In this document: positions 62-35,486 of the stretch, in pieces | Numbering within the stretch: position 1 is the stretch's first letter | Layout: each line of letters begins with the position of its first letter | NCBI GenBank assembly: GCA_008638015.1 | Contig: VTPD01000010.1 | Location: 1 to 35,486 of the forward strand | Direction of reading: 5' to 3' | DNA: 35,486 nucleotides | Source of the DNA: Pelagibacteraceae bacterium | GTDB taxonomy: Bacteria; Pseudomonadota; Alphaproteobacteria; Pelagibacterales; Pelagibacteraceae | The notes under the pieces: model-generated | What the model saw: only the letters and a program-made list of their open reading frames with translations | What the model was told of the DNA's origin: nothing | Databases searched by the model: none | Position numbers and translations under genes: made by a program

Positions 62-340
62 ATGTTTTTTGTTTATCTGATAATCTCAACAAATGATCAG
101 CCTAATACATATGTAGGATATACTAACAATATTTTTAAAAGAATTATTTTACATAATGATGGCAAAGGTGCAAAATATACAAAGGGTAGATTTTGGAAAT
201 TAGCTTATTTTGAAAAATTTAATTCTAAAAAAGTTGCCATGAAGAGAGAATATGCATTGAAAAAAGATTATAAATTTAGAAAAACTCTTAAAAACCTATT
301 TAATCTGGCTTACTCAATTAAAACTAGAAATTTTAAGTAA
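62..340 (+). CDS. GIY-YIG nuclease superfamily protein (small standalone, UPF0213/YhbQ-like)
   Basis: FFVYLIIS...TYVGYTNNIFKRIILHNDGKGAKYTKGR matches the GIY-YIG core (YxY...Y(V/T)GxTxxxxxRxxxHNxGxGAxYT). Confidence 0.85.
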   Translation: MFFVYLIISTNDQPNTYVGYTNNIFKRIILHNDGKGAKYTKGRFWKLAYFEKFNSKKVAMKREYALKKDYKFRKTLKNLFNLAYSIKTRNFK

Positions 341-33963: not shown

Positions 33964-34890
33964 CTAATTTTCAAATTTTATTTTATCTAAAGCGTTATTG
34001 TTAAAGATATTGGCTTCTTTAATATATCTTCTGACCATTTCTGAGGATTTGTGGCCTGTCATTTGCATGATACTTCTCTCATCAGCGCCCATACTAGCCG
34101 TTGAGGTGGCAAATCCCGATCTTAGACTGTGACCCGAGTATAATTTGGGATCTAATCCTATTAAAGAAGTATATTTTTTAACAATTAATGAGATAGTTTT
34201 GTCAGAACAGTAAAATAGGCTGTTTTTGCTTGTATCTCTAACATTTGTCCATTCCTTTAATGTGATTACAGGGCATATTTCTGTTTTTTCGAATGTTGGT
34301 ATTCCTTTTATATATCCTTCCCCAAATTGATCACTTTTTGAAAAATTTAATTTAATTTTTAGACCTTCTTTAACAAATTCCAAATCATCGATTTTTAGAT
34401 TTGCTATTTCTGATCTCCTAAAACCTCCAGCAAATCCTAAAAGCAATATAGCTTTATCTCTAATAATTTGTACATTATTATGTACTAATTTATTATTTAT
34501 TAAATTAATTATATTAATTAAATTACTATATAATAATGGTTTTTTTCCTTTTTGATATGAACCTATTTTTCTTTTTATTCCTATTAAGTTTTCTCTAATC
34601 AGCGGATGCCTACAATCAATATGGTAGCCTTTTATTTTGTGTATTACATTTATACTTGCTAACCTACGTTTTAAAGTGCTGTATTTTTTCTGATTACTTA
34701 AATTAGTTAAGTACAAGCCAATTATTTTAGGATTGCTTGGCAAAGATTGAAAACTATATTTTTTACAAAAATTTTCAAAATCTTCAAAATCTGACCTATA
34801 AGCTTTTAGAGTATTTTTTGATTTAGAATGATTTAAATTATCGCTAATTTGCTTTTCTAAATCACTTATTTGATTTATTATTTCATTCAT
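33964..34890 (-). CDS. Tyrosine recombinase / phage-integrase family protein (solo Xer/Cre-like)
   Basis: N-terminal SAM-like domain (KNTLKAYRSDFEDFENFCKKY); catalytic residues R (GGFRRSEIANL), K (FSKSDQFGEG), HxxR (SGHSLRSGFATSTASMGADERSIMQMTGH), Y (EMVRRYIKEANIF). Confidence 0.93.
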   Translation of the reverse strand: MNEIINQISDLEKQISDNLNHSKSKNTLKAYRSDFEDFENFCKKYSFQSLPSNPKIIGLYLTNLSNQKKYSTLKRRLASINVIHKIKGYHIDCRHPLIRENLIGIKRKIGSYQKGKKPLLYSNLINIINLINNKLVHNNVQIIRDKAILLLGFAGGFRRSEIANLKIDDLEFVKEGLKIKLNFSKSDQFGEGYIKGIPTFEKTEICPVITLKEWTNVRDTSKNSLFYCSDKTISLIVKKYTSLIGLDPKLYSGHSLRSGFATSTASMGADERSIMQMTGHKSSEMVRRYIKEANIFNNNALDKIKFEN

Positions 34891-34917
34891 TTCCGATAAC
34901 CATTAATTATCGGAAAT
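34889..34917. repeat. Perfect 11-bp inverted repeat with 7-bp centre; candidate recombinase core site or operator
   Basis: ATTTCCGATAA (34889-34899) ccattaa (34900-34906) TTATCGGAAAT (34907-34917), exact reverse complements, overlapping the integrase start codon CAT (34888-34890). Confidence 0.75.
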
Positions 34918-34962
34918 AATATAATTGTTTATAAAACTTGTCAATAGCATTATTTAGCTACA

Positions 34963-35343
34963 ATGAATTTTTTTATTAAAACAAAAAATATTAATATTGA
35001 ATGCTTTTCACTAAAGACAGAAACTTCAAATAAAATAATTCAAAATTTACCAATCAAGGCACAAATAAACACCTGGGGAGATGAAATATACTTTGATACA
35101 AAGTTAAGGGGAATTTTGTTAGAAAAAGAAGCAAAAGAGGTATTTAATTTAGGTGAAATTGCTTATTGGACTGAAGGCAGCTCCATAGCCATTGGTTTTG
35201 GACCTACTCCTGCAAGCCTTGGTTCTGAAATTAGATTAGTTACTAAATGCAATTATTGGGCAACAGCTAAGAATCCTCAAGATTTGCTTAATTTAAAAAA
35301 AGTTAACGATGGTGATGAAATTATCATTGATTTAAAGGGTTAA
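34963..35343 (+). CDS. Cyclophilin-like fold protein (TM1367-like, Cyclophil_like family)
   Basis: INTWGDEIYFDTKL..., GEIAYWTEGSSIAIGFGPTPAS..EIRLVTKCNYWATAKNPQDLLNLKKVNDGDEIIID. Confidence 0.75.
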   Translation: MNFFIKTKNINIECFSLKTETSNKIIQNLPIKAQINTWGDEIYFDTKLRGILLEKEAKEVFNLGEIAYWTEGSSIAIGFGPTPASLGSEIRLVTKCNYWATAKNPQDLLNLKKVNDGDEIIIDLKG

Positions 35344-35346
35344 TTT

Positions 35347-35486
35347 ATGCTTAAGGGTAGTAAATTTCAAATTAAAGTCTGGAAAGAAATTAAAAAAATC
35401 CCAAAAGGAAAGGTAACTACCTACAAAAATATAGCAAAAAAAATAGGTTTTCCTAAGGCTTCTAGGGCTGTTGCAAATGCCTGCGG
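35347..35486 (+). CDS. Methylated-DNA-[protein]-cysteine S-methyltransferase / ATL-like DNA-binding domain, truncated by window end
   Basis: Translation MLKGSKFQIKVWKEIKKIPKGKVTTYKNIAKKIGFPKASRAVANACG matches the Ogt/Ada C-terminal helix-turn-helix (F..VW..l..IP.G.v.TY..iA..ig.p.a.RAVa.A.g). Confidence 0.85.
   Translation, partial: MLKGSKFQIKVWKEIKKIPKGKVTTYKNIAKKIGFPKASRAVANAC

Follow-up and report, generated by a model that had tools for sequence, protein, structure and literature searches.

SAR11 bacteria are the most abundant bacteria of the ocean and form a strongly streamlined lineage. A tyrosine recombinase gene of this clade, with a palindrome at its start codon, raises the question of whether one recombinase and its own site could serve chromosome resolution here. 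In Cre/loxP of the phage-plasmid P1, a single tyrosine recombinase acts on inverted arms around a short asymmetric centre and resolves circular dimers. A 2009 survey listed Pelagibacter ubique as lacking a dif/Xer system, stated that Cre/loxP placed at the terminus can substitute for dif in E. coli and found no evidence of Cre/loxP-like systems in dif/Xer-deficient proteobacteria (Carnoy and Roten, 2009; PMC2731167). In a review, XerS, XerH and XerA are listed as single systems, and difH and difSL are located close to the respective genes (PMC5357621). The main text of Kono et al. (2011; PMC3025954) does not mention Pelagibacter, and the 2009 survey was the only publication linking Pelagibacter with dimer resolution that was found in a literature search outside which most subscription papers lay. 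In this study, we analysed a window of 35,486 nucleotides, contig C24 of a 1.09-Mb Pelagibacteraceae draft genome (67 contigs, 95% complete), and followed its recombinase and palindrome through related genomes, plasmids and pelagiphages. With a probability of roughly 0.8, gene and palindrome constitute a self-contained single-recombinase chromosome resolution (dif-like) system of SAR11; there are no data on recombination, binding or cleavage.

The recombinase gene and its palindromic site

The initial annotation had described a complete R-K-HxxR-H-Y tyrosine recombinase on the minus strand and, at its start codon, a palindrome of dif/lox geometry with exact arms and an asymmetric centre; both descriptions hold (Table 1). 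The predicted catalytic set is complete (R158, K185, H254, R257, H280 and Y289) and none of its residues varies across the homologue alignment; the protein meets the definition of the tyrosine recombinase superfamily, PF00589 with R-K-H-R-H-Y in the Phage_integrase domain. Its named homologues belong to Pelagibacteraceae (SAR11 clade). The site, ATTTCCGATAA-CCATTAA-TTATCGGAAAT, shares two bases with the recombinase ATG (34890-34888). It occurs once in the window when up to three mismatches are allowed (mean for shuffled sequence, 0.01), and its sole further match in the genome is a three-mismatch copy on contig C41. The TTGACA-17 bp-TATTAT arrangement resembles a sigma-70 promoter as far as can be read from sequence, and ends on the site, so that the expected transcription start would be covered by it. 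At the other end of the window (62-340), a small ORF of 92 amino acids has, judged by eye only, a GIY-YIG nuclease-like appearance.

Table 1. Features of the recombinase locus in window coordinates
Feature	Position	Strand	Remarks
Tyrosine recombinase ORF	33964-34890	minus	308 aa; PF00589 (E 1.6e-19) and PF02899; solo, Cre-like
Putative dif/lox-like recombination site, class A	34889-34917		29 bp; perfect 11-bp arms and 7-bp centre
Gene-proximal arm ATTTCCGATAA	34889-34899		overlaps ATG by 2 bases
Asymmetric centre	34900-34906		minus-strand reading TTAATGG
Promoter-side arm TTATCGGAAAT	34907-34917		read from sequence
-10 box TATTAT	34916-34921	minus	17-bp spacing from -35; abuts site; equivalents upstream of homologues
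Alternative -10 TATATT	34918-34923	minus	read from sequence
-35 box TTGACA of recombinase promoter	34939-34944	minus	read from sequence; TTGACN common to homologous loci

A site is present upstream of the gene in all 120 distinct homologous loci, always between the ATG and a TTGACN box that lies no more than 45 bp upstream of the site. Its centre is near-invariant (TTAATGG in 97 and TTAATTG in 17 of the 120 loci). With site and position common to every locus, the palindrome is, on sequence grounds, far beyond chance. Two arm specificities can be distinguished: class A arms, TTCCGATAA/TTATCGGAA, are found in 98 loci and class B arms, CTAAYGATAA/TTATCAATAG with close variants, in 20, leaving two loci unclassed. 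The class of the site switches once on the unrooted tree of the homologous proteins and coincides with a 12-residue segment after F226, which is present in class B proteins and absent from class A. The 7-bp asymmetric centre is kept even across the switch. Gene and palindrome have hence been kept together and the two arms have changed in concert, the pattern that the initial annotation had put forward as a test, and the arm class tracks the protein. Both classes are found inside genera g2, g5 and g8 (e.g. G005/G024, G034/G008 and G011/G018), so gene and site may move together as one module. Some loci of each class have the same glycosyltransferase and TatD genes downstream.

Since the site occupies the promoter from which the recombinase is transcribed, we infer that the protein probably also represses its own expression. 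It could be argued that self-repression is the only role of the palindrome and that the recombination site is elsewhere or unrelated, since it always separates the promoter box from the ATG and spans the expected transcription start. We regard this as improbable: an operator spacer would not need the conserved and asymmetric centre that persists across the A/B switch, and one DNA stretch can serve as both operator and recombination site.

Family distribution, XerCD and the replication terminus

Orthologs of the recombinase were found in 205 of 248 Pelagibacteraceae genomes, almost always as one copy, and in all nine single-contig genomes of the family within a set of 60 relatives. No match was found in 43 of the 248. 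In one of these, G003, the contig stops at the neighbouring gene, consistent with an assembly break; the others may include real losses, and the system therefore need not be essential. A site search of the 248 genomes revealed none with two host-type sites.

The genome of the window encodes no PF00589 protein besides the recombinase. Across the 60 relatives, Pelagibacteraceae usually possess one such protein of approximately 310-325 residues, and the sister family of the same order mostly two, far higher-scoring. The pair in sister-family genome G036 has XerC (283 bits) and XerD (271 bits) as its best NCBIfam models, with frames truncated at the start; the solo SAR11 proteins reach 60-76 bits on the XerC/XerD models, for which the curated cut-offs are 330-335, and the window recombinase itself 60-65. 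The requirement for XerCD/dif, two recombinases above these cut-offs, is not met, and the search of the window's own genome for xerC and xerD that the initial annotation had proposed returned neither (draft, 95% complete). The genome does contain what defines a single-recombinase chromosomal dif system: one candidate recombinase only, and an inverted-repeat site linked to it. The further criterion of FtsK with a gamma domain is also satisfied, this protein being kept in 55 of the 60 relatives, the window's own genome among them.

The terminus is not visible in the 67-contig draft, and closed relatives served as stand-ins. GC skew was sampled in seven closed Pelagibacteraceae genomes (10-20 stretches per genome, one containing the site) and a two-replichore model was fitted for the best terminus. 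In five genomes (G004, G009, G011, G020 and G025) the site and this terminus are separated by less than 0.5% of the genome length, and in G007 by 4.6%, placing six of the seven within 5%; in G030 the fit fails, with the best terminus 26.7% of the genome away. The combined p value for terminus location is 6e-8, related genomes being treated as independent. By itself, the local skew drop at the site is only weak in several genomes, and the two-replichore fit was used in its place. The skew check suggested at the outset thus comes out in favour of the terminus, and a single-copy site at the replication terminus, as expected of a chromosomal dif system, is observed with one exception among the seven closed relatives. 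A locus at the terminus also speaks against the palindrome being an operator only. The window itself ends about 570 bases past the site (34889-35486), and the neighbouring gene in G003 is likewise close to a contig end, so assembly breaks near the terminus may be possible.

Relationship to Cre, Xer and plasmid recombinases

A profile search of the PDB gave Cre structures as the best matches (residues 24-291, E 7.7e-13). XerD matched the C-terminal domain only, and XerH residues 104-288 only (E 1.1e-7), far more weakly than Cre and short of the close full-length match that would define an XerH. In a fold search with an AlphaFold (AF2) model of moderate quality (pLDDT 74), the first 33 matches were all Cre or Cre-derived (TM about 0.6), followed by XerA, Tn1549 integrase and XerH. 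The XerS model NF003462 scores 49 bits against a cut-off of 267, which excludes membership of that group. The initial annotation had named XerH/difH and XerS/difSL as known solo systems. Its idea of a single recombinase is supported, with the refinement that the protein is nearest to Cre by profile and fold, rather than XerH- or XerS-like, and that its closest relatives outside SAR11 are plasmid-borne.

In sequence and fold the protein thus matches Cre over its full length, but the 34-bp lox architecture of 13-bp arms and an 8-bp spacer is absent, the SAR11 site having perfect 11-bp arms and a 7-bp centre. The two systems share one tyrosine recombinase, inverted arms and a short asymmetric centre. 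They differ in protein sequence (18-20% identity), and the SAR11 system is chromosomal and terminus-located, with FtsK-gamma present and the site placed on the recombinase promoter. In XerH/difH (Helicobacter, Campylobacter) and XerS/difSL (Streptococcus, Lactococcus), too, one recombinase serves the chromosome and its site is close to the gene (PMC5357621, PMC2731167), but the SAR11 protein is about 50 residues shorter and matches their models weakly, and its site has different arms and lies between promoter and start codon. XerCD/dif has in common the inner ATAA...TTAT edges, the terminus location and the retention of FtsK-gamma; it differs in having two proteins, whereas the single SAR11 protein scores far below the XerC/XerD cut-offs, and in a 6-bp rather than a 7-bp centre, the SAR11 arms being symmetric.

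The nearest non-SAR11 homologues in annotated collections are plasmid-borne (Paenibacillus, Alicyclobacillus, Protochlamydia and others). When XerC/XerD serve as the root, the tree places the SAR11 proteins in a single clade (support 99) amid plasmid, alphaproteobacterial and viral-contig proteins. The integrases of Paenibacillus pPPM1a, Alicyclobacillus pAACI01, Protochlamydia pPNK and Rickettsiales Ac37b plasmid 2 show 34-41% identity, and several have upstream palindromes with GATAA/TTATC or GACAA/TTGTC inner edges; their plasmid location, the distance of the site from the gene and the other arms set them apart. A dyad site with similar inner edges lies 71-190 bp upstream in four of ten plasmid relatives (shuffles, approximately 2%). 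Long dyad sites were noted upstream in Protochlamydia pPNK, Iodobacter pl1, Rickettsiales Ac37b plasmid 2 and Sphingobium p-B-Sy (L386, L388, L390 and L392), and the pPNK site, ttctaacgttcgataa-TGTGTTC-ttatcgaacgttagaa, has perfect 16-bp arms. The same geometry so far from a start codon is not what an operator alone would predict. GATAA-N6/7-TTATC palindromes were also seen upstream of distantly related recombinase genes in other alphaproteobacteria and one viral contig (L378, L379, L380 and L195; 30-36% identity).

Such abundant plasmid relatives, a downstream region of variable length and the frequent adjacency of tyrosine integrases to att sites are compatible with an integrative element or phage remnant in which the protein is the integrase and the palindrome the att site. 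We consider this very unlikely, as the ortholog is single-copy in most of the family, with one site per genome and often one neighbourhood, and neither a second att copy nor a close viral relative of the recombinase was found.

Pelagiphage copies of the site and proposed function

The site patterns match 19 viral contigs without the recombinase, related to the HTVC010P and HTVC106P pelagiphages. The phage site is intergenic, upstream of terL and usually behind a small gene that may encode the terminase small subunit. A and/or B sites were found there in 19 of 62 terL contigs with enough upstream sequence, and none in the remaining 525 kb of those contigs. Tandem arrangements are frequent among contigs and isolates. 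In HTVC106P, HTVC100P and HTVC035P, roughly 30 bp separate an A-like from a B-like site; Greip has a B site, HTVC024P has weaker sites and HTVC010P has degenerate ones at the equivalent position. That phages carry the site without the gene is a further point against an operator function only. A PF00589 integrase was detected in none of nine site-bearing phage records tested, several of which are fragments, and in three of 12 site-less HTVC010P-type phages (HTVC028P, G275 and G276); any complementarity of integrase and site is only suggestive in so small a sample.

In a search ignoring the centre, most phage sites have centres of 6-8 bp unlike the host TTAATGG/TTAATTG, which argues against simple integration through identical centres. 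A single-sequence scan of the viral contigs for the recombinase found none and an alignment scan only remote relatives, and the phage records held only eight homologues, all remote, so that no junction between phage and host emerged from them. A terL search of 397 SAR11 genomes revealed seven HTVC010P-like loci (G221, G244, G099, G528, G250, G491 and G150), possible prophages, with no site in their examined flanks. Phage integration at the host site, considered as a candidate, is without evidence, as none of these seven loci has a site in those flanks and no prophage was seen at the host site. According to a 2024 study, known means of chromosomal integration are missing from the genomes of the most abundant pelagiphages (PMC11094077). 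Site-bearing pelagiphages probably engage the host recombinase, and whether for integration, phage-DNA resolution or another purpose is undecided. It is possible, at somewhat less than even odds, that integrase-less HTVC010P-type pelagiphages exploit it through their A/B sites for integration at the host terminus or resolution of their own genomes, the A/B pair widening the host range.

The initial annotation had put forward a system of one recombinase and a dedicated site, serving dimer resolution or mobility. The absence of XerCD, the terminus location and the co-conservation of gene and site support it, and the finding named as refuting it, XerC, XerD and a canonical dif elsewhere in the genome together with orthologous loci lacking the palindrome, was not made. 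Because most genomes of the family carry one copy each of gene and site, often in a common neighbourhood, we prefer dimer resolution to mobility. That the system is an inactive or dispensable relic of a plasmid module, near the terminus by chance, has very little in its favour: some genomes lack a recombinase match and endosymbionts manage without Xer (PMC2731167), but the catalytic residues are all invariant, promoter and site are kept in 120 of 120 loci, and arms and protein have changed in step in a strongly streamlined lineage.

For the chromosome resolution system that we propose, four recombinase protomers would bind the two arms of the site on two sister copies, cleave at either border of the 7-bp centre and carry out strand exchange, converting a chromosome dimer into two monomers at the terminus. 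Cleavage and strand exchange are inferred, as is a dependence on FtsK, which, with its gamma domain, would bring the sites together and is the likely organiser. The asymmetry of the centre would set the direction. It appears that a plasmid-type resolution module took over from XerCD/dif in Pelagibacteraceae, the direction of descent being an inference.

The locus thus provides a candidate replacement for dif/Xer in one of the ocean's most abundant bacterial families, with a directly testable site, and what would be a natural example of a chromosome adopting a plasmid-type resolution module. A defined protein segment distinguishes its two naturally occurring recombinase/site specificities, and the site may show how abundant pelagiphages without an integrase could interact with the genome of their host.
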